Shown here: in pieces, positions 228 to 11,221 of the stretch
Position numbering within the stretch: position 1 is the stretch's first letter
Layout of the letters: each line of letters begins with the position of its first letter
Source: Prevotella sp.
GTDB lineage: Bacteria > Bacteroidota > Bacteroidia > Bacteroidales > Bacteroidaceae
Length of the DNA stretch: 64,000 nucleotides
Assembly (NCBI GenBank): GCA_016285245.1
Contig: JAEEQH010000005.1
Span: 62,001-126,000 of the forward strand
Reading direction: 5' to 3'
The notes under the pieces: generated by a model
The model's database searches: none
The model's input: the letters and a program-made list of their open reading frames with translations, nothing else
What the model was told of the DNA's origin: nothing
Program-made: the position numbers and the translations under genes

Positions 228-566
228 TGTGTTTGTTGTTATTGTTGTTGTTGGTAGATGCTTCTATGACGTCTTTTGACAGCCATTTTCGTTTTCCAGC
301 TACAAATGTAATCATTTCTTGGCGAATACACAAAAAATTACGGAAAATTAATGTTTTTATCACAATTATAGCCGAAAAAGTCAACAAAATAGAAAAAACA
401 CGTAAAAAGTTTTGCAGTTTCGAAAAAAAAACCTAATTTTGCGCGGAATATCCCGTATTGTCAAGCACCGAATCTTTGCGTGCGGGGTGGAGATATGCGC
501 GTACATTATATATAATAGGGAAAGACCTGAACAGAAATCACTAATATATCAATAAAAACAAAAACA

Positions 567-3500
567 ATGAAGAGACATGTTTCGAAAACCCTTCTGGTGA
601 TGGCATTGACACTGTCGTCAGTTGGTAGCTTCGTCGGTTGTAAAGACTACGACGAGGATGTGTATGTGGATCTGAAGTCGAGGATCACCAAGGAGACGTC
701 CCTGCGTGAGGCCCTGCAGATTCAGGTCAACGAGCTGGAGGCTTACGTCAAGACGCTGAAGAGTTGCGAGTGCGACCTCTCTGAGTACCTGACCAAGCTG
801 CAGGCCGACAAGACCTACATGAAGAAGGCTGACTTTGAGGACCAGATCAACCAGATCTCCCTCAACCAGACAGCCATCACACTGATCAACAAGGCCATTG
901 ATGACATCAATTGGAAGCTGGATCAGATTAAGCCCTTTGATGACAGCGACATCCTTAAAAAAATCAACGATCTGAACAATCTGATTCTGAGCGTAAAAGA
1001 GACCGCCAATCAGGCTCTCGAGGCTGCCACGTTGGGCAAGTGCGAGTGTAATCTCAAGCCGCTGGAAGACCGCGTAAAGACCCTTGAGGGTCTGGTAGCT
1101 GGTTGGGGCGAGCGTATCGAGGCTGTCACCAGCACCGCTGAGAAGGCTTTGGCAAAGGCTGAGAAGGACTCCATCCTGCTTGTCAAGCAGCAGAAGACCA
1201 TCGACTCGCTGATCAATGTCATCAACAACATGGACAACACCATCAAGGAGACCGTCCTCAAGCGCATCGAGACTCTGGAGAAGAACACCTATACGAAGGC
1301 TGAGATTGACAAGATTATCCGCGACCTGAACATTCCCGACGTGCAGCCGTTGCTCGACCGCATTAAGAACATCGAGGACAACTACCTGACTAAGAAGCAG
1401 ATCGAGGACATGATCAATGCTATCCCTGTCACCGACCTCTCGCCCATCGAGCGCCGTCTGGCCGCCCTCGAGGGTCATCCCGTGGTTGATGCCTACACGA
1501 AGTCTGAGATTGACCAGATGCTTCAGAACCTTGACATTCCGCAGACAGACCTGACGGAGATCCTTAATCGTCTGAACACTCTGGAAGGTAAGCACTTCTG
1601 GACTGAGCAGGAGATTCTTGACTTGATTGACGATGCTCTCCCCGAGCCATACGACCATCAGGCTATTCTCGACAGGCTGGCAGCTCTAGAGGCCAAGCCT
1701 CATGTAGATGCCTACAACAAGGATGAGATTGATGAAATGATTGGGGACTTGAATGACGCTATTGAAGACGCTCAGGACCTAGCTCAGGACGCTTTTGACT
1801 TAGCTACTGATAACCAAGGACTGATTAGCGGCCTTGACACGAGAGTCGGCGACCTCGAGGATGCAATGACGACCCTTTTGGAGACCACAATTCCTGGTAT
1901 TACGGATAGACTGACAGCCCTTGAGGGGCGTGTTGGTACCCTTGAGACTAAGGTCAATGAACTCGACACGAAGGTGAACAAGCTCGTTCAGGATCTCGAG
2001 AAGCTGCAGAACGACCTCCAGAAGATGATTACCGGTATCATCGTTCAGGGCACCCAGAACCCCGTCATCGGTTACCTCAACACCCCGCTCGACGTCCGCT
2101 CGACCCTCCTCGGCGTGTACTACGGCGAAGCTGCTAGTGACTGGCAATTCCCCTCGGCAAATTCTGCCCACTATGCAAGAAACGTGGAATTCCAGATGCT
2201 GGAGTCTAATTTTGAACGAATTAGTCAAATCCTTGGCGAAAACACCTTCGGCCAGGAGAGTGGCGGTGCAGGTGAGACGCTCGTTACACTCGGCGAAGAT
2301 GGCACTGAGGAAGGCAATGCCGGTACGCTCTACCTGACCGTGAACCCCGCCAATGTTGATTTCGTTGGTGCTGCGCTGAAGCTCCACGACAGCCAGGACA
2401 ATGAGCTGGACATCCTGTCGCCCCTGCAGAAGTCTGACCGTCTGCTGACCATGAGCTACACCCGTTCTGCTGACAACGGTTTCTACGAGGCCGCTGCCAC
2501 CATCACGGCCGATCAGGTTGAAAACATGAAGTTCGAGGTCGACATGGAGAACCTCCAGGAAGACGTGAAGGGTATGTTCAAGGACTTCAGCGATGTCTAT
2601 AGCATCTGTGACTTCGGTGCGAACATCATCAACAGCCTGAAGACCCAGTTGCCCGCTTACGCAGTAATGGCATCCTGGCAGGATGAGTCGAGCGCCAAAG
2701 AGGCTACTGATACTCAGGATGCAGAAGAAGGTACCATTCACAAGCTCTACTCTCAGTACAACATCGGTGCAATGGCCGTCAAGCCGCTGTCATTCTCCTT
2801 CCTGCAGGATGTGAAGCTCATTGACAAGGCTCCGTTCATTGAGGATTTGGAGGATCTGGTTGACGATATCGTCAATGAAATCAACATCAGTATCTCTTCC
2901 GACCTGCCCGACTTCTCGGAATATGGTGGTAAAATTGAGTTCACCGACTTCACGTTGCCTAACATCGACGACGATAAGTTCAAGGTGAAGGTGAAGATCA
3001 CCCTCGACGACATTGAGGAGCAGATTCTCAAGGACTACTTCGGCAGAGACCTCCATCTGGATGCTGGCCGCAACGGTAAGTTCTATATCGTATTCAACAA
3101 GGAGGAGAATGAGTACGTCCTCGAGGTTGAGCAGACCTACAATGACGGTAGCAAGCGCTACAGCACCTTCTGCTATAACAAGGAGACCGGCCAGTTCACT
3201 CAGGACGGCAATGAGATTGCCAATGCCATCCTGCCGCTCGATTTCGAGTTTGAGATTGACAAGGCAGACGATGCCCACGCTGTTCTTGAGCAGATCCTTG
3301 AGTCTGTGAACGCCAAGGTGGGTGCCAATGGCACGCTGTCGCAGCAAGTCACCGACCTGCTGAACGAGGTGGCCGAGATTGGTGACCTGAACGAAAGGAT
3401 CTCCGTCTCTATCAGCAACTCTAAGGACAACATCAAGAGCGTGCTCGACCGCTATGTTACTCGTCTGAACAGCAAGCTGACCAACTGCATCAACACCTCT

Positions 3501-3884
3501 ACGTCCATCATGCACATCGCCCTGATGGCTAACAACGGTAATCGTGTAGGTATCTTGAGCCAGAAGAAGGCCATTCCGACCGTCGCTCCTGGCGAACTGG
3601 ATCTTTACCCGACGACCTACAACCTTGAGCTCCTGGCTCCTGCCTATAAGAAGTTCGTGGCTGTCTCCGATGTGTACAACCTCGACGGCACTCCTCTGGA
3701 CCTCTCAGAAGCCAAGACTAAGGCTCAGGCTGCCAACGGTGGCGAGAACATGAACAAGGTCATCAATGGCAGTGTCGCCTGCAAGTTCAATGGCGAGCCG
3801 GGTTACATCTACGAGGTGTTGTACACCGCCGTTGACTACTTCGGCAAGGTTGCCCTGAAGAAGTACTACGTCAGATTCGAATAA
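567..3884 (+). CDS. large surface lipoprotein with coiled-coil stalk (YTKxEID-type repeats) and C-terminal globular region
   Basis: Signal peptide with lipobox (SVGSFVGC), long heptad-like region with repeated YTKAEID/YTKSEID/YNKDEID and RLxALEG motifs, paired CEC motifs. Confidence 0.75.
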   Translation: MKRHVSKTLLVMALTLSSVGSFVGCKDYDEDVYVDLKSRITKETSLREALQIQVNELEAYVKTLKSCECDLSEYLTKLQADKTYMKKADFEDQINQISLNQTAITLINKAIDDINWKLDQIKPFDDSDILKKINDLNNLILSVKETANQALEAATLGKCECNLKPLEDRVKTLEGLVAGWGERIEAVTSTAEKALAKAEKDSILLVKQQKTIDSLINVINNMDNTIKETVLKRIETLEKNTYTKAEIDKIIRDLNIPDVQPLLDRIKNIEDNYLTKKQIEDMINAIPVTDLSPIERRLAALEGHPVVDAYTKSEIDQMLQNLDIPQTDLTEILNRLNTLEGKHFWTEQEILDLIDDALPEPYDHQAILDRLAALEAKPHVDAYNKDEIDEMIGDLNDAIEDAQDLAQDAFDLATDNQGLISGLDTRVGDLEDAMTTLLETTIPGITDRLTALEGRVGTLETKVNELDTKVNKLVQDLEKLQNDLQKMITGIIVQGTQNPVIGYLNTPLDVRSTLLGVYYGEAASDWQFPSANSAHYARNVEFQMLESNFERISQILGENTFGQESGGAGETLVTLGEDGTEEGNAGTLYLTVNPANVDFVGAALKLHDSQDNELDILSPLQKSDRLLTMSYTRSADNGFYEAAATITADQVENMKFEVDMENLQEDVKGMFKDFSDVYSICDFGANIINSLKTQLPAYAVMASWQDESSAKEATDTQDAEEGTIHKLYSQYNIGAMAVKPLSFSFLQDVKLIDKAPFIEDLEDLVDDIVNEINISISSDLPDFSEYGGKIEFTDFTLPNIDDDKFKVKVKITLDDIEEQILKDYFGRDLHLDAGRNGKFYIVFNKEENEYVLEVEQTYNDGSKRYSTFCYNKETGQFTQDGNEIANAILPLDFEFEIDKADDAHAVLEQILESVNAKVGANGTLSQQVTDLLNEVAEIGDLNERISVSISNSKDNIKSVLDRYVTRLNSKLTNCINTSTSIMHIALMANNGNRVGILSQKKAIPTVAPGELDLYPTTYNLELLAPAYKKFVAVSDVYNLDGTPLDLSEAKTKAQAANGGENMNKVINGSVACKFNGEPGYIYEVLYTAVDYFGKVALKKYYVRFE

Positions 3885-3905
3885 AAGACAAAGAAAGGAT
3901 TGCAT

Positions 3906-5063
3906 ATGAACGTGAAGAAACAAATATTGTCTGCACTGCTTCTCCTGGCCGCTCTCAACGTGTCGGCTCAGGAGCCGCAGGGCGAGACGGTTTACGACTT
4001 TAAGCCGCATTGGTTCCTGCAGGTGCAGCCTGTTGGTGGACAGTACACGTTGGGTGAGGTAGACTTTAGCCACCTGGCATCCTACAACGTACAGGCAGCC
4101 CTGGGCTACCAGTTCAACAAGATTGTCGGACTCCGTCTGGCAGTCAACGCCTGGCAGAGCAAGGGCGGCATAGAGATTGATAACAGTGACTTCGGTCTGG
4201 TGAACTTCCGTCAGACGTGGAAGTGGAACTACTTCGCTCCCTCCCTCGACGTGCAGTTCAACCTGTCGAACGTAGTGTGCAAGTACAACCCCAAGCGCTT
4301 CTTCAACCTGTATGCGTTTGTGGGTGCCGGTCTGAACTTCGCTTCCGGCAACGACGAGGCTCAGGATGCCGAGAAGGCCCTACAGACTTATCTGGCCAGC
4401 GCCCCCGGCCGTGCCTGGGACGGCAACCAGAATATGCGCTACCTCTGGGATGGCTCCAAGACCTGTGTCTTCGGACAGGGTGGTCTGGTGGGTGACCTCC
4501 GCTTGTCGGACGCCCTCAGCCTGATTCTCGAGGTGAACGCCAACCTGCTGAGCGACAAGTACAACTCTAAGCGCGCCGGCAATGCTGACTGGTATTTCAA
4601 TGCCCTCGCTGGTCTGAAGATCAACCTCGGCAAGACCTATACCGAGCGTTTCATCCCTGCTCCCGTTGTGGAGCCGGCACCTGTTGTCGTTGAGCCCGCT
4701 CCTATCGTTGTGGAGCAGAAGCCGGAGCCCGTTGTCATCGAGCCCATCCGCCGCGATGTCTTCTTCACCATCAACTCGTTCGAGATTGCCGATATCGAGG
4801 CACAGAAGGTGAAGGATATTGCTGACTACATGAAGATGTATCCGAAGTCGAAGGTGGTGATTACCGGCTATGCCGATGCCGGCACGGGTAACGACCGCAT
4901 CAACGACCGTCTGGCCGCCCAGCGTGCCGACGCCGTGGTGACGGCTCTAAGAAACCAGTATGGCATCTCGCCCGAGCGTATCACCTACGACTCAAAGGGT
5001 GCACGTGTGCAGCCGTTTGCTGAGAACGACCGTAACCGTGTCTCCATCTGCATTGCGGAGTAA
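3906..5063 (+). CDS. outer-membrane beta-barrel protein with proline-rich linker and C-terminal OmpA peptidoglycan-binding domain
   Basis: Signal peptide; PAPVVEPAPVVVEPAPIVVEQKPEPVV linker; C-term KVVITGYADAGTGNDRINDRLAAQRADAVVTAL..NDRNRVSICI is OmpA-like. Confidence 0.88.
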   Translation: MNVKKQILSALLLLAALNVSAQEPQGETVYDFKPHWFLQVQPVGGQYTLGEVDFSHLASYNVQAALGYQFNKIVGLRLAVNAWQSKGGIEIDNSDFGLVNFRQTWKWNYFAPSLDVQFNLSNVVCKYNPKRFFNLYAFVGAGLNFASGNDEAQDAEKALQTYLASAPGRAWDGNQNMRYLWDGSKTCVFGQGGLVGDLRLSDALSLILEVNANLLSDKYNSKRAGNADWYFNALAGLKINLGKTYTERFIPAPVVEPAPVVVEPAPIVVEQKPEPVVIEPIRRDVFFTINSFEIADIEAQKVKDIADYMKMYPKSKVVITGYADAGTGNDRINDRLAAQRADAVVTALRNQYGISPERITYDSKGARVQPFAENDRNRVSICIAE

Positions 5064-5163
5064 TGCTTAGAACGGCGTCATCGCCCATTTGAATTATCAT
5101 ATCAGCTCGGTCTTTTTGGTATTAAACCATCCAGAGAAAGACTGGGCTGTTTTCTTTAAGCCC

Positions 5164-6327
5164 ATGAGAAGAATACTACTTATACTATTAACGTTCGTCT
5201 GCACGCTGGCAACTGTGGCGCAGACGAATGGCGCATATTACCGCGTAAAAAACAAAAAGACAGCTCGATTCATCAAGGTGATTGACAACCGCGGAAGCAT
5301 CAACCTGCATACGACGGATGCCGATCTTGGTGCCCTTCTGACCGTCAAGGGTGACGCCTTTTCACATTCAGACCCTTCTACCGTCATCAAATTCGATCAG
5401 ATGTCTAGTGGCTGGAACTTAAAGTGTCAGGGAACGAATACTTATGACATCATCGGATATCCAGTGATGACAGATCAGACATCTAGAGGAACTTGTGCCT
5501 ACGCCCAAAAAGGAACGATAACAAAATATCTGGCCGACTCCTATGATTTACTGAATCTGAATAGCGACTCTAGTAGAGTGAAAACAGCTGGTGGTGGTGA
5601 TCTTGAGAGTTGGTGGGATATTCTCCTTGTCTCGCCCGACGGTGACAACTACTTCGGTCTGGAGCCCACTATTTCTGTTGGCGGTAGCTACTACCAGACA
5701 TTCTATGCCGACTTCCCCTTCACGTTCTACTCGACGGAGATGGAGGCGTACTCTGTCAAGACCATCGATAACAGCAAGGCGGCCGTAGTCATTGAACCCA
5801 TCACGGGTGGTGTCGCAGCAGCGACGCCCGTCATCGTCAAGTGTTCGACAAACACTGCCTCCAACAACCGCCTGGCCATCGGCTCGGGCAGCGGCGCTGC
5901 CACAGGCAACCTGCTGACTGGTGTGTACTTCTGTAACGATGTGTCCGAAGTGTCAGGCCACCGCAACGTCGTCGACTACGATGCCTCGACCATGCGTGTG
6001 CTGGGAACAGCTGCCGACGGTTCCCTGGCTTTCGTCAAGGCAACCTCCCTGCAGTATATCCCTGCCAACACCGCTTACATCACCGTCACCGCCGGTGCCC
6101 CTGACGTCCTGAAGGTCTACTCCCAGGCCGAGTACGACGCCCTGCCTACGGCGAAGACAGGTGACCTGAACGGAGACGGTGAGGTCAGTGGTCAGGACTT
6201 GGTCATCATGGTCAATATGATCTTGGGTAAGAGAGACAAGACAGCTGCAGCCGACCTTAGCGGTGATGGCGATGTCAGCGGTGTCGACTATGTAAAACTT
6301 GTAAATCTGATTTTAGGAAAGAACTAA
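5164..6327 (+). CDS. secreted protein with C-terminal dockerin type I repeats
   Basis: Signal peptide MRRILLILLTFVCTLATVAQ; C-term GDLNGDGEVSGQDLVIMVNMILG....ADLSGDGDVSGVDYVKLVNLILGKN is a duplicated dockerin Ca-binding repeat. Confidence 0.85.
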   Translation: MRRILLILLTFVCTLATVAQTNGAYYRVKNKKTARFIKVIDNRGSINLHTTDADLGALLTVKGDAFSHSDPSTVIKFDQMSSGWNLKCQGTNTYDIIGYPVMTDQTSRGTCAYAQKGTITKYLADSYDLLNLNSDSSRVKTAGGGDLESWWDILLVSPDGDNYFGLEPTISVGGSYYQTFYADFPFTFYSTEMEAYSVKTIDNSKAAVVIEPITGGVAAATPVIVKCSTNTASNNRLAIGSGSGAATGNLLTGVYFCNDVSEVSGHRNVVDYDASTMRVLGTAADGSLAFVKATSLQYIPANTAYITVTAGAPDVLKVYSQAEYDALPTAKTGDLNGDGEVSGQDLVIMVNMILGKRDKTAAADLSGDGDVSGVDYVKLVNLILGKN

Positions 6328-6983
6328 TGAGGAGTCCTCGGCTGCTATTTGTCGGATTATTGTCCAGTATGCTGCTGATGCCCGTTACGGCGTCGGCAGA
6401 CAACACGCTCCGTCTTGAACCTCTGGAGATTAGTGCCGGAGAGACGAAGGAACTGACGATAAGCCTCGATAACGACATGGACATCACGCTCGTACAGTTC
6501 GACTTGAAGTTACCGCAGGGATTGTCCATACCCGTCAATAGCAAGAACAGGTTCCGTGTAGCCATTACCGATCGTACGACTCTGGAAGACCACTCTATCA
6601 ATGTCAATGCCATCGATGGTATCTATCGCATCCTTCTAGCATCAATGACAAACACTGTGATTGAGGGCAACGACGGCGCATTATTCAAAGTGACTCTCAC
6701 TGCTGATGAAACTTTCAGCGGCGGGACAATTTCTTTAGAAAAGATTGAGTTGGTGTCGCCCGATGAAATTGCCATTCATCCCATATCCGTTTCCATTGAT
6801 GTTCAAACGTCATCAGCCATACACGATATAACCACCCCACCCCATCCGAAAGGCCAGTCTGCCTATGACCTCGGCGGACGTAAGGTCAGCCGTGCATGGC
6901 AGCGTGGTATTATCATCGTTGATGGCCGAAAGGTGTCCTACTCCCGTAAAAACAAATTATTAGATAAAAATGAAAACCATTAA
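6327..6983 (+). CDS. secreted protein with single cohesin-like domain and short GRKV C-terminal tail
   Basis: Start overlaps previous stop (TAATG); signal peptide; beta-sandwich pattern ETKELTISLDNDMDITLVQFDLKLPQGL..YRILLAS..GALFKVTLTADETFSGGTISLEKIELVSPD. Confidence 0.7.
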   Translation: MRSPRLLFVGLLSSMLLMPVTASADNTLRLEPLEISAGETKELTISLDNDMDITLVQFDLKLPQGLSIPVNSKNRFRVAITDRTTLEDHSINVNAIDGIYRILLASMTNTVIEGNDGALFKVTLTADETFSGGTISLEKIELVSPDEIAIHPISVSIDVQTSSAIHDITTPPHPKGQSAYDLGGRKVSRAWQRGIIIVDGRKVSYSRKNKLLDKNENH

Positions 6984-9702
6984 GAACTTATACTTTCTTA
7001 TATTAAGCACGTTACTGTTGATGCCTGTCTCTGGTATGGCAGACAACACGCTCGTCATTGAGCCGTTCGACATTAAGGGCGGAGAAACCAAGAACCTGAT
7101 CATTGATCTGGAGAATGACCAGCCAATTACTCTCGTACAGTTCGAACTACAGTTGCCAGAAGGACTGTCGGTCGAGAAAAAGAATGCCACCAAGTATAAG
7201 ATAGGATTAGAAGGTAATCGTACGGACTTGGAGAATCACTCTATCGGTGTCAACTTTCTAACCGATCCCGAGAAGGGAGATTTCTACCGTATTCTGCTCT
7301 CGTCGACTGATAACATTGAATTAGAAGGTACATCAGGCCCTGTGCTCTATATTACCATCGCGGCAGCTTCCACGTTCAAAAGCGGTACGATCAAACTAAC
7401 TGGTATAGAGTTGGTGTCTCCCGACGAGACACCTTATCACCCCGCAGAAGTAACTCTCTCAATTCTCCCCTCTGTGACCGTCACCATCCAGAATGCGGAA
7501 CGCGCTTATGGCGCTGCCAATCCGGACTTTACGTATACCACGTCGGAGGAGATTGACCTGACGGGAAAGGTGACGTTTGCGACGGAAGCCACGGCCACAT
7601 CGGACGTTGGCGATTATGCCATCACAGGCACATCGACGGCAACGGACGTTAACGTGACGTTCGTCTATGGCACGCTGACGGTGACACCCGCTGCGCTGAC
7701 GGTGACGGCCAACGCCAAGGGCAAGGTGTTTGGCGATGACGACCCAGCCCTGACATACGAGACAACAGGTCTCGTCAACGGTGACCTGCTGACGGGCTCG
7801 CTGACACGTGACGAAGGCGAGAATGTCGGCACCTACGCTATCAAGCAGGGCACGCTGGCTGCCACATTGAACTATACGCTCACCTTTAATGGTGCCAACC
7901 TGACTATCGCCGCGAAGACCGTCACAGAGCCGGTCATCGAGTTCGCTGAGTCGACGTTCACGTACAGCGGCGCAGAGCTGAAGCCTGCCATAACGGTGAA
8001 GGACGGCGAAACAACCATCCCTGCTGAGGAGTACACCGTTGCCTACGACAATAATACGAACGTTGGCAAGGCTACCGTGACGATTACCGACAAGGCCAAC
8101 GGCAACTACACCGTCAGCGGCACGACAACCTTCACCATCACACCGAAGACGGTCACCACGCCGACCATCGTGCTGGCAGAGACTTCTGTCGCATACGACG
8201 GCACGGCGAAGGAGCCTGCCGTAACGGCAGTGAAAGATGGCGAGACGACGATTCCCGCTGAGGAGTACACCGTCAGCTATAGCAATAACACGAACGCTGG
8301 CCCGGCTACCGTGACGATTACCGACAATGACGGCGGCAACTACACCGTCAGCGGCACGACGACCTTCACCATCACGCCGAAGGCTGTCACCGCCCCGACC
8401 ATCGAGCTGGCAGAGTCGTCGTTCACCTACGACGGTACGGCGAAGAAGCCTGTCGTGACGGCTGTGAAGGACGGCGAGACGACGATTCCCGCCGAGGAGT
8501 ACACCGTCAGCTATAGCAATAACACGAACGCCGGCACGGCTACCGTCACGATAGCCGACAAGGACGGCGGCAACTACGCCGTCAGCGGCACGAAAACCTT
8601 CACCATCGCTCCGAAGACCATCACCTCACCTGTGGTGACCCTGGCCAAGACGTCGTTCACATACAGCGGTACGGCTCAGGAGCCCGCCGTGACCGTGAAG
8701 GACGGCGAGACGGCCATCCCCACCTCGGAGTATACCGTCACCTATAGCGGCAACAAGAATGTAGGCACAGCCACCGCCACTGTTACTGACAAGGATGGTG
8801 GTAACTATACGTTCGAGGGCTCGTCGGCATCGTTTACCATCACCAAGGCCATGCTGACGGTGACGGCGCGTAACGCCAGCCGTAAGGTGGACCAAGAGAA
8901 CCCGACATTCGAACTGACATACAGCGGCTTCAAGAACGGCGAGACGGAGAATGTGCTGACCGTGAAGCCTGTAGCCACGACGGAGGCGACGGCCGACAGC
9001 CCTGTCGGCGACTATGTCATTACCGTCAGTGGCGGCGAGGACGAGAACTACGACTTCACCTATGTCAATGGTACGCTGACCATCGCTGAGAAGACAGTCA
9101 TCACCATCACCGCCAAGAACGCGACACGCAAGTATGGCAATGCCAATCCGACGTTCGAATACACCGTCTCGGGTGGCGATATCACGGGTACACCCGAGTT
9201 GACCTGTCAGGCTACGGCCACATCGCCCGTTGGCGAGTACACCATCAAGGTGGGCAAGGGCAGCATCACCACCGATGCCAACTTCGTGTTCAATGACGGT
9301 GCACTGACCGTTGCGAAGGCTCTGCTGAAGGTGACAGCGAAAGACGCCAGCCGCGAAGAGGGCGAGGAGAACCCGACCTTCGAGCTGACATATAGCGGCT
9401 TCAAGAACGGCGAGACGGAGAGTGTGCTGACCGTAAAGCCTGTGGCTACGACGACGGCCACGACCGACACGCCGGAAGGTATGTATCCCATTAACGTCGA
9501 AGGCGGCGAAGCCCAGAACTACGAATTCACCTATGTCTCCGGTACGCTGACCATCACCGAGAAGGAGGTCATCGACGGCATCTCCACCCTCTCCTTGGAG
9601 AAGGTACAGGGCACTGTCTATACCCTGAGCGGACAGCGCGTGGAGAAGCCCCGCAAGGGTCGCCTCTACATTGTCAACGGCCGTAAGGTCGTATTGAAAT
9701 AA
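6970..9702 (+). CDS. secreted multi-repeat protein: N-terminal cohesin-like domain, MBG-type repeats, C-terminal GxxYIVNGRKVVLK tail
   Basis: N-term paralogous to 6327-6983; repeats such as LTVTARNASRKVDQENPTFELTYSGFKNGETENVLTV..DSPVGDYVITVSGGEDENYDFTYVNGTLTI are MBG-like. Confidence 0.8.
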   Translation: MKTIKNLYFLILSTLLLMPVSGMADNTLVIEPFDIKGGETKNLIIDLENDQPITLVQFELQLPEGLSVEKKNATKYKIGLEGNRTDLENHSIGVNFLTDPEKGDFYRILLSSTDNIELEGTSGPVLYITIAAASTFKSGTIKLTGIELVSPDETPYHPAEVTLSILPSVTVTIQNAERAYGAANPDFTYTTSEEIDLTGKVTFATEATATSDVGDYAITGTSTATDVNVTFVYGTLTVTPAALTVTANAKGKVFGDDDPALTYETTGLVNGDLLTGSLTRDEGENVGTYAIKQGTLAATLNYTLTFNGANLTIAAKTVTEPVIEFAESTFTYSGAELKPAITVKDGETTIPAEEYTVAYDNNTNVGKATVTITDKANGNYTVSGTTTFTITPKTVTTPTIVLAETSVAYDGTAKEPAVTAVKDGETTIPAEEYTVSYSNNTNAGPATVTITDNDGGNYTVSGTTTFTITPKAVTAPTIELAESSFTYDGTAKKPVVTAVKDGETTIPAEEYTVSYSNNTNAGTATVTIADKDGGNYAVSGTKTFTIAPKTITSPVVTLAKTSFTYSGTAQEPAVTVKDGETAIPTSEYTVTYSGNKNVGTATATVTDKDGGNYTFEGSSASFTITKAMLTVTARNASRKVDQENPTFELTYSGFKNGETENVLTVKPVATTEATADSPVGDYVITVSGGEDENYDFTYVNGTLTIAEKTVITITAKNATRKYGNANPTFEYTVSGGDITGTPELTCQATATSPVGEYTIKVGKGSITTDANFVFNDGALTVAKALLKVTAKDASREEGEENPTFELTYSGFKNGETESVLTVKPVATTTATTDTPEGMYPINVEGGEAQNYEFTYVSGTLTITEKEVIDGISTLSLEKVQGTVYTLSGQRVEKPRKGRLYIVNGRKVVLK
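7918..8850 (+). repeat. four tandem about 78-aa protein repeats (about 235 bp each) inside 6970-9702
   Basis: Four copies of TPTIELAESSFTYDGTAKKPVVTAVKDGETTIPAEEYTVSYSNNTNAGTATVTITDKDGGNYTVSGTTTFTITPKTV with high DNA similarity. Confidence 0.85.
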
Positions 9703-9728: not shown

Positions 9729-9766
9729 TAAATGGGGGTGTGCCGATGTTGGCACACCCCCGTTTA
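9729..9766. terminator. bidirectional Rho-independent-type hairpin
   Basis: ATAAATGGGGGTGTGCC-GATGTT-GGCACACCCCCGTTTAT: perfect 11-bp GC stem plus flanking A/T pairing, between convergent genes. Confidence 0.85.
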
Positions 9767-9780
9767 TGTCCGTAATAAAA

Positions 9781-10875
9781 TCAGAATAGGCGGAACGAGA
9801 GACGGGCGTTGACCATGGGGAACACCTTGGCCTTGCGTACGAGGCTGACATAGTCACCCACCTTGCCGGGGACGTTCTCGACGTCGTGGATGAGGTCCGT
9901 GCCGTCATGGGTCGTCAGGTGGGGTGTGCCGCCCCAAAACATCACACCGGCATCGAAGCCAATCGTCACGCGGTCGTTGCCCTTCAGCAGACGGCCGTCA
10001 TAGCCGATGCCGACATAGGGCTTGAAGCTGTTCACCTTCATGTCGGCCTTCACCATGCTGTTCTCATCGGGCTCCATAATGTAGGCCTCACCCTTCTTGT
10101 GGATGACGTTCCCCTCTTCGTCGACGACATCGTGCTTGTAGGTGCCGATATAGACACCCATGAGGCCGTAGTCGGCAATGTTCTTATAGCCGCGCTTCAC
10201 GAAGTTGTTCTTCGGGTCGAGATACACGTCATCGAGTTCCTCGGGGAAGTCCTTCTCACGGATGATACCCAGGTCACGCAGTATGCCGATGTTCATCAGC
10301 ACCTCCTTCGCCGTGTGGTCGTAGAAGTACCACTCGTCGTTCAGCACGGGACTGTCCAGCACGCGCTGGCGCAGGTTGTTGAAGAGGTTGATGGCCACGA
10401 GCGTCGACATACTCTCGGTCTTGTTGTAGGCCTCGGCGATCTTCGACGGTCCGAGGCAGAAACCGGCAGATACGTGCCAGTGGCGGTTGTTCTTCAGGGG
10501 GAAGACGTCGACCATGACGTTCCAGTTCCAGAACCTGGGCCGTCCCTGGGTGTATACCTCGCTGTTCACAGGCTGACCGGTGAAGTTCGAGAGGGTGTTC
10601 GACAACTTGTCGAACTTCTGCTTGCTCTCGGCGGCATCCTCGCCCACCTGCACACCGAAGGTCATCGGCACCTCGATGCGTGGCACGTAGCTGAAACCTG
10701 TGCGCAGCCTCACACTCTCGCCGACGGGCATGGCCAGATCGATGCCCAGTCCCGTGGTACCCATGGTGACGGCGGCATCCATGTGGCTGAACAAGTTCTT
10801 CTCTTGCTGCTGTTGTGCTCCGGCGGGGATGGTGGTGCACAGTGCCAATAGGCAGATAGGTAGGACGTTCTTCAT
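9781..10875 (-). CDS. outer-membrane beta-barrel-like hypothetical protein
   Basis: MKNVLPICLLALCTTIPAGAQ signal peptide; GTTGLGIDLAMPVGESVRLRTGFSYVP..PYVGIGYDGRL..FPMVNARLSFRLF, terminal F. Confidence 0.65.
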   Translation of the reverse strand: MKNVLPICLLALCTTIPAGAQQQQEKNLFSHMDAAVTMGTTGLGIDLAMPVGESVRLRTGFSYVPRIEVPMTFGVQVGEDAAESKQKFDKLSNTLSNFTGQPVNSEVYTQGRPRFWNWNVMVDVFPLKNNRHWHVSAGFCLGPSKIAEAYNKTESMSTLVAINLFNNLRQRVLDSPVLNDEWYFYDHTAKEVLMNIGILRDLGIIREKDFPEELDDVYLDPKNNFVKRGYKNIADYGLMGVYIGTYKHDVVDEEGNVIHKKGEAYIMEPDENSMVKADMKVNSFKPYVGIGYDGRLLKGNDRVTIGFDAGVMFWGGTPHLTTHDGTDLIHDVENVPGKVGDYVSLVRKAKVFPMVNARLSFRLF

Positions 10876-10966
10876 TGTAGTTTGTATTAAGCAAAAAAGT
10901 GCGGCCAGGCATATGCAACTACCTTGGACGCACTTTTTAGAAGTTTCGAAATGTGGGTGAAATATC

Positions 10967-11221
10967 TTATTTCTTCTGAGCCTTACCGTAGCGGCTAAAG
11001 AACTTGTCGACGCGACCGGCGGTGTCGACGAGCTTGCTCTTACCAGTATAGAACGGGTGAGAGGTGCTTGAGATTTCAACTTTTACCACGGGGTAAGTTT
11101 CGCCTTCGAATTCTACTGTGTCATTGGTCTTTGCTGTAGACTTCGTAAGGAACATATCGCCGTTGGACATGTCCTTGAACACGACGGGGCGATAGTTTTC
11201 GGGATGAATACCTTTTTTCAT
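10967..11221 (-). CDS. rpmE2: 50S ribosomal protein L31 type B
   Basis: [60 protein letters not shown]; lacks the Zn-binding Cys of type A. Confidence 0.95.

Follow-up and report, generated by a model that had tools for sequence, protein, structure and literature searches.

A putative cell-surface stalk cassette of Prevotella with a candidate dockerin-cohesin joint

We analyzed a 64,000-nucleotide stretch of a Prevotella sp. genome (GenBank assembly GCA_016285245.1, contig JAEEQH010000005.1, positions 62,001 to 126,000; hereafter the window), in which positions 567-9702 hold a large lipoprotein gene, an OmpA-family gene and three further genes with dockerin and cohesin domains. This locus is probably a cassette for a cell-surface stalk, or coat, rather than an invertible S-layer locus, and part of the coat would be re-attached by a dockerin-cohesin joint. 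The order of its first three genes is conserved between species, the coil of the lipoprotein is rich in coiled-coil motifs, the C-terminal part of the third protein is exchanged for a dockerin in some species, and this exchange goes together with a cohesin gene next door. What was least expected is the dockerin joint. The source genome is a metagenome-assembled genome (MAG) of 2.77 Mb, 81% complete; judged by its named relatives, MAGs of Prevotellaceae/Bacteroidaceae from rumen and gut and a cultured rumen isolate, its host is probably a Prevotella-type bacterium of the rumen or gut.

Results

Conserved gene order and promoter

A profile of the lipoprotein family was searched across the genus and matched many species; the weak matches to residues 1-330 were mostly other coil lipoproteins. 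Homologous loci with enough downstream sequence amounted to 91 distinct loci. An OmpA gene lay downstream of the lipoprotein gene in 89 of these, directly adjacent in 83, and a third gene, corresponding to the body of the dockerin protein of the window, was also present in 89 of 91. The exceptions, L289 and L292, had no OmpA gene; in both, the third gene was duplicated in tandem and came straight after the lipoprotein gene. The carriers were MAGs of Prevotellaceae/Bacteroidaceae, the rumen isolate Xylanibacter ruminicola D31d, whose cassette (L307, with the covalent form of the third protein) was found with a profile from a closer subset of homologs, and members of other Bacteroidales families, in which the lipoprotein-OmpA-gene 3 order was likewise observed (L168-L172). 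The cassette was frequent in rumen Prevotella. Because the order is conserved in 89 of 91 loci, the lipoprotein/OmpA pair belongs with gene 3. A preliminary description had placed the pair just upstream of a "cohesin/dockerin trio"; the gene order agrees more closely with a cassette of three genes that has two variable genes after it. The trio label misleads a little, because only genes 4 and 5 make up the variable, cohesin-linked part and gene 3 is fixed in the cassette.

A Bacteroidota-type promoter, TTG-N-TAnnTTTG (TTGCAGTTTCGAAAAAAAAACCTAATTTTG; positions 412-441, forward strand), ends about 125 nt before the ATG of the lipoprotein gene. The same motif preceded 67 of 99 homologous lipoprotein genes, compared with 1.9 expected from shuffling. 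No inverted repeat flanking the promoter at 412-441 was seen in the window. As read from these sequences, the promoter of the cassette is fixed, conserved and non-invertible. At the other end, a strong hairpin with an 11-bp stem (9734-9761, no strand assigned) follows gene 5 and is a probable terminator shared with a convergent gene; no strong terminator was found in the window cassette before it. Co-transcription of the cassette is plausible. The linkage of the genes upholds this part of the earlier suggestion that 567-9702 is one surface system, for which we infer co-transcription and a surface location, and the region plausibly is one system. Between the OmpA gene and gene 3, no consistent conserved terminator or RNA element was found among the relatives; 45 of 92 had a hairpin with a T-run, mostly weak. 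Strong hairpins (12-bp stems, T-rich afterwards) were seen in this gap in L098, L088, L247 and L250, where they may lower gene 3 expression.

Lipoprotein and OmpA partner

The 1105-aa lipoprotein is encoded by a single open reading frame on the forward strand (567-3884, ATG at 567) and consists of a leader, a coil (residues 26-495) and a head (residues 496-1105). The leader has a lipobox with Cys25, followed by KDYDED, which resembles a lipoprotein export signal (LES). In an alignment of 22 homologs, Cys25 and Asp27 were invariant. The minimal LES of Bacteroidetes has been defined as K-(D/E)2 or Q-A-(D/E)2 with a net negative charge (PMC5080379), and the acidic stretch after Cys25 matches this definition, as expected of a surface lipoprotein. 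The protein is therefore presented here as a putative surface-type lipoprotein, predicted to be exposed outside the cell.

Residues 26-495 contained nine RhxxhE motifs, compared with 0.10 expected (2000 shuffles, maximum 3), while none was counted in the head. RhxxhE is a trimer signal of coiled coils. YTKxEID-type repeats, which are similar to repeats found in phage tail fibres, occurred five times in the coil, compared with 0.01 expected from shuffles. The best matches of the coil in the PDB were the trimeric proteins gp26 and sigma-1, and these were weak (E 0.007-0.05). With motif counts far above those of shuffled sequences, the preliminary description of a coiled coil with YTKAEID-type repeats, a motif typical of trimeric fibres, was borne out; the trimer itself is a prediction, and the coil probably forms a trimeric stalk. 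Across species, the length of the stalk ranged from <100 to ~500 residues and that of the whole lipoprotein from 567 to 1190 aa.

The conserved head (2052-3881, forward strand) was examined with an alignment of 50 sequences, an AlphaFold2 model and Foldseek. The model (mean pLDDT 74) consisted largely of beta structure and included a helical hairpin, in agreement with the beta-rich C-terminal half described earlier, and the last ~125 aa were predicted to be Ig-like. Foldseek gave no PDB match to the whole head below 1e-3, and PDB sequence searches with the head returned matches limited to coils and helical bundles.

The OmpA-family partner (385 aa; 3906-5063, forward strand) starts at an ATG 21 nt past the lipoprotein stop with AAGGA in front; a TTG-initiated form at 3900 is less likely. 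It has an N-terminal barrel slightly under the Pfam cut-off (PF13505, 27.8 vs 28.7 bits), a Pro/Val linker (PAPVVEPAPVVVEPAPIVVEQKPEP) and, at residues 286-376, a peptidoglycan-binding OmpA domain (PF00691, 5e-14). An OmpA-family gene with a barrel and a Pro/Val linker, as first described, is thus confirmed after the lipoprotein gene.

Dockerin and cohesin genes

Gene 3 (5164-6327, forward strand) encodes a body (residues 1-324) and a type I dockerin (residues 333-383) that replaces the usual tail. The body (5164-6135) was modeled at pLDDT 89, with beta-trefoil matches at its N-terminus. The dockerin matched PF00404 (1.1e-8) and PDB dockerins (1.3e-6) and has two calcium-binding repeats. Gene 4 (6327-6983, forward strand) encodes a signal peptide, a cohesin domain and a tail resembling IYIVNGRK, and gene 5 (6970-9702, forward strand) a cohesin domain, MBG repeats (PF18676, 1.7e-87, five stretches) and the tail LYIVNGRKVVLK. 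The cohesin domain of gene 4 was 48% identical to the N-terminus of gene 5. A family profile of this domain matched the PDB scaffoldin cohesin 5n5p at 6e-6, and PF00963 was called in 16 of 34 family members. In most species the third gene encodes the body followed by MBG repeats and/or a short tail like IYIVNGKKVVVK, and genes 4 and 5 of the window end in the tail type otherwise carried by the third gene. PF18962, a C-terminal sorting domain, was found in 1 of 29 third genes, and SprA, a component of the type IX secretion system (T9SS), is encoded in the genome of the window.

Among 94 distinct third genes, 10 ended in a dockerin. Nine of these 10 were followed by a cohesin gene, compared with none of the other 84, and in these nine cases the cohesin gene also carried the C-terminal piece that is usually part of the third gene. 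In the tenth locus (L284) the dockerin was clear and the next gene had no recognisable cohesin. The exchange could be followed in pairs of loci. Gene 3 of L094, a single protein, was 73% identical to gene 3 of L093 over its residues 1-330 and 60% identical to gene 4 of L093 over its residues 335-534; L240 and L238 showed a like swap between a single and a split third gene. Because a cohesin gene comes next in 9 of 10 dockerin loci and in 0 of 84 others, the dockerin and cohesin appear to replace a covalent link. In the species of the window, one coat protein thus appears to have been divided into two pieces that a calcium-dependent plug of dockerin and cohesin holds together.

In the tree analysis, five changes of state were needed, at least three of them on well-supported branches; their direction was not fixed. 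A sign test on independent pairs lacked power in this small sample (median p 0.5). With confidence falling slightly short of even, we propose that the coat protein may repeatedly switch between a covalent and a two-part dockerin-cohesin form, which would make its outer part exchangeable and calcium-dependent.

Other dockerins of the genome and genus were also counted. The genome of the window had four dockerin matches. At L320:1829-10055 (G000 contig C24), it encodes a protein of 1793 aa in which three cohesin-like domains are combined with a dockerin. The protein encoded before this one, 941 aa long, also has a dockerin, along with a weak match to cohesin, and the two may form a scaffoldin-like pair. 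Of 200 congeneric genomes, 118 had dockerins above the Pfam cut-off, and several had >=30; cohesin-like domains occurred in 74 of 150. Such counts across the genus point to an extensive network of dockerins and cohesins in rumen Prevotella that has been described little so far.

Comparison with Bacteroides S-layer-type pairs

BT1927 and BT1926 are the surface lipoprotein and outer membrane barrel of the Bacteroides thetaiotaomicron S-layer (PMC12578637), and quantitative PCR primers for BT1927 have been published (PMC12548429). No exact primer match was found in the genome contigs searched; orthologs of BT1927 were located by the primers, both of which fitted (2 and 0 mismatches), in two Bacteroides genomes, L313 and L314, on which the conclusions about BT1927 rest, L174 and L178 being of another S-layer/OmpA type. 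Before the ortholog, 23-nt repeats of the type CCGTTACCTABVRAGTAAC flank a 256-bp segment beside a recombinase, and the barrel gene after it encodes 288 aa with PF16961 and no OmpA domain.

Neither protein of the window resembled its counterpart in this pair (orthologs at L313:6562-10277). The window lipoprotein aligned with the BT1927 ortholog in the leader only (E = 0.18), and the window OmpA protein, a PF00691 partner, gave E = 1.8 with the BT1926 ortholog. The repeat CCGTTACCTABVRAGTAAC had no match in the window with up to three mismatches, while the positive controls in L174, L178 and L313 were found, and no recombinase was seen adjoining window-type cassettes. The two systems share a large surface lipoprotein with a small barrel partner; they differ in both gene sequences and in the promoter, invertible there and fixed in the window. 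The homology to BT1927-BT1926 proposed in the preliminary description is thus rejected by sequence comparison.

A looser relation to Bacteroides S-layer/OmpA systems held in part. L313 also contains a second lipoprotein/OmpA pair with a tyrosine recombinase (L313:915-4755), and its OmpA protein (L313:3583-4752) was 43% identical to that of the window over the full length (E 6e-93). The lipoprotein of this pair shared the leader with that of the window and no more. In a profile of five S-layer-type lipoproteins, 56 leader columns aligned with the window lipoprotein (96.7%), while the window head gave an hhalign probability of 0.3% against the five. The analogy therefore stands for the OmpA partner and the leader and fails for the lipoprotein head. 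As in the Bacteroides phase-variable PF00691 pairs, a lipoprotein with a CKDYDDD-type leader is directly followed by OmpA; unlike them, the window cassette has an unrelated head, a fixed third gene and no recombinase or inverted repeat. The cassette thus seems to work like S-layer/OmpA systems and to share their partner, with a coat protein of another kind.

Within the genus, type II cassettes have the order giant lipoprotein (~900-1800 aa), small lipoprotein and OmpA. Their leader is of the window kind and their OmpA is homologous to that of the window; the head is unrelated beyond the N-terminus, gene 3 is absent, and several adjoin a recombinase. The genome of the window has a second coat-type locus, related to type II (L180:6745-16875, G000 contig C46). 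It encodes a 1368-aa lipoprotein whose leader is that of the window lipoprotein, together with an MBG protein, another protein of 758 aa and an OmpA protein 61% identical to that of the window. L070, L104, L107 and L181, all type II loci, adjoin a tyrosine recombinase to which the recombinases at L174 and L178 are related; this makes them, rather than the cassette of the window, the candidates for phase variation. In L174:9273-10556 and L178:6634-7819, which come from another Bacteroidales family, the recombinase lies between inverted repeats of 26 nt that are of the type known from the B. thetaiotaomicron S-layer, and it sits upstream of DUF4988/collagen-like lipoproteins. The TfsA/TfsB S-layer of Tannerella forsythia is likewise a Bacteroidota surface coat, and SprA is present in the genome of the window. 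TfsA and TfsB are T9SS-exported glycoproteins, not lipoproteins; it is this description, not sequence, that sets them apart from the window lipoprotein.

Discussion

We propose the following model for the cassette. The lipoprotein would be acylated at Cys25 and reach the outer membrane, where its KDYDED export signal would have it turned to the outside, and its coil would trimerise into a stalk lifting the head above the membrane. The OmpA barrel would insert beside the lipoprotein, in contact with it, aid its assembly and anchor the structure to peptidoglycan by its C-terminal domain; this role as assembly partner and anchor is suggested by analogy with that proposed for BT1926 (PMC12578637). 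The third protein, with its beta-trefoil body, would be exported and decorate the coat. In most species it would keep its own repeats and C-terminal tail, while in the species of the window these would have moved to genes 4 and 5 and be re-attached by the calcium-dependent joint.

The dockerin-cohesin joint has so far been known mainly from cellulose-degrading enzyme complexes. Like type I cellulosomal pairs, the window has a PF00404 dockerin with two calcium-loop repeats and a cohesin family matched by profile. The window joint differs in that it would link the halves of a coat protein, not enzymes to a scaffoldin, with one cohesin per partner, and in that it appears to replace a covalent fusion of the relatives. 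A cellulosome at the window locus was considered and rejected, since the dockerin sits on a beta-trefoil protein and there is a single cohesin per partner. Dockerin modules have been described in polysaccharide utilization loci (PULs) of rumen Bacteroidetes with an undefined role, those found in Prevotella lying outside PULs (2020 study, PMC7480376). Dockerins are abundant in rumen Prevotella, and here gene order and natural fusions point out a partner: a dockerin protein and the cohesin of the next gene appear to stand in for one protein. If this is true, dockerin and cohesin serve here to build a bacterial coat, a use that has nothing to do with the docking of enzymes. The analysis also defines in Prevotella a widespread, apparently non-phase-variable stalk or coat cassette with a new head. 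Because the cassette is present in cultured X. ruminicola D31d, the surface coats of these bacteria, which are dominant in the rumen, become testable.

Among the other explanations, the strongest is an S-layer that is functionally equivalent without being homologous, in which the heads form a two-dimensional lattice on their stalks and block phage or complement. We consider this unlikely, yet the most serious competitor: the architecture is that of S-layer/OmpA pairs, one of which has the 43% identical OmpA, and the cassette is frequent in rumen Prevotella, while the lengths of protein and coil vary widely between species (567-1190 aa for the protein) and the heads of the most similar known S-layer-type lipoproteins are unrelated. 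That the cassette is a homolog of the phase-variable BT1927-BT1926 system and forms a true crystalline S-layer is hardly credible. BT1927-BT1926 likewise pairs a surface-type lipoprotein of similar size with an outer membrane barrel (PMC12578637), and the window leader is common to other phase-variable Bacteroidales S-layer-type lipoproteins; against this stand the dissimilarity of both proteins to the orthologs in two Bacteroides genomes, the PF16961 partner there, and the fixed promoter of cassettes that have no inverted repeat in the window and no adjoining recombinase.

The gene 3 dockerin could instead join a cellulosome-like network by docking on a distant multi-cohesin protein, the neighboring cohesins binding other dockerins. 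The four dockerin matches and the 1793-aa protein with three cohesins and a dockerin agree with such a network, as does the spread of dockerins through the genus. This explanation is nevertheless improbable, since dockerin and next-gene cohesin go together in 9 of 10 loci and in none of the 84 others, and the two parts together correspond to a protein known in one piece. Trimeric coiled-coil envelope connectors of Deinococcus and Veillonella act as tethers between outer membrane and peptidoglycan, and the lipoprotein of the window might likewise face the periplasm, in keeping with its long coil, its lipid anchor and the peptidoglycan-binding domain of its partner. Such a role is very doubtful: the leader is of the export type, the protein has a large beta head and no SLH or OmpA domain, and coil lengths from <100 to ~500 residues are incompatible with a fixed periplasmic gap.

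Several observations weigh against the surface-coat reading with its dockerin-cohesin joint. For the stalk, heptad-like hydrophobic periodicity was patchy, being significant in parts of the coil only and strongest at 421-504, and over the whole coil a 3.6-residue period was significant and a 3.5-residue period was not. The stalk is therefore likely to be made of segments and not of a single uninterrupted coil. Several RhxxhE motifs were found in only some relatives of the lipoprotein, and several relatives had none. The N- and C-terminal parts of the head model were good, and its middle had a pLDDT <50. For the joint, a single-sequence Pfam scan called no cohesin in genes 4 and 5 of the window, and cross-talk of the gene 3 dockerin is possible, because the genome has other dockerins and the three-cohesin protein. 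For export by the T9SS, the tail model TIGR04183 reached at best 13.8 bits in relatives, compared with a cut-off of 23, and was not found in the window. For the transcript, the 100-nt gap between the OmpA gene and gene 3 (5064-5163) holds a weak hairpin with a T-run, and because hairpins sit in this gap genes 3-5 may differ in expression level.

Outside the five genes, the window gene at 9781-11079 (reverse strand) encodes a protein with a beta-barrel-like C-terminus (PMVNARLSFRLF). In L168-L172 a gene like this one comes after or beside the cassette, so it may be an additional associated component.

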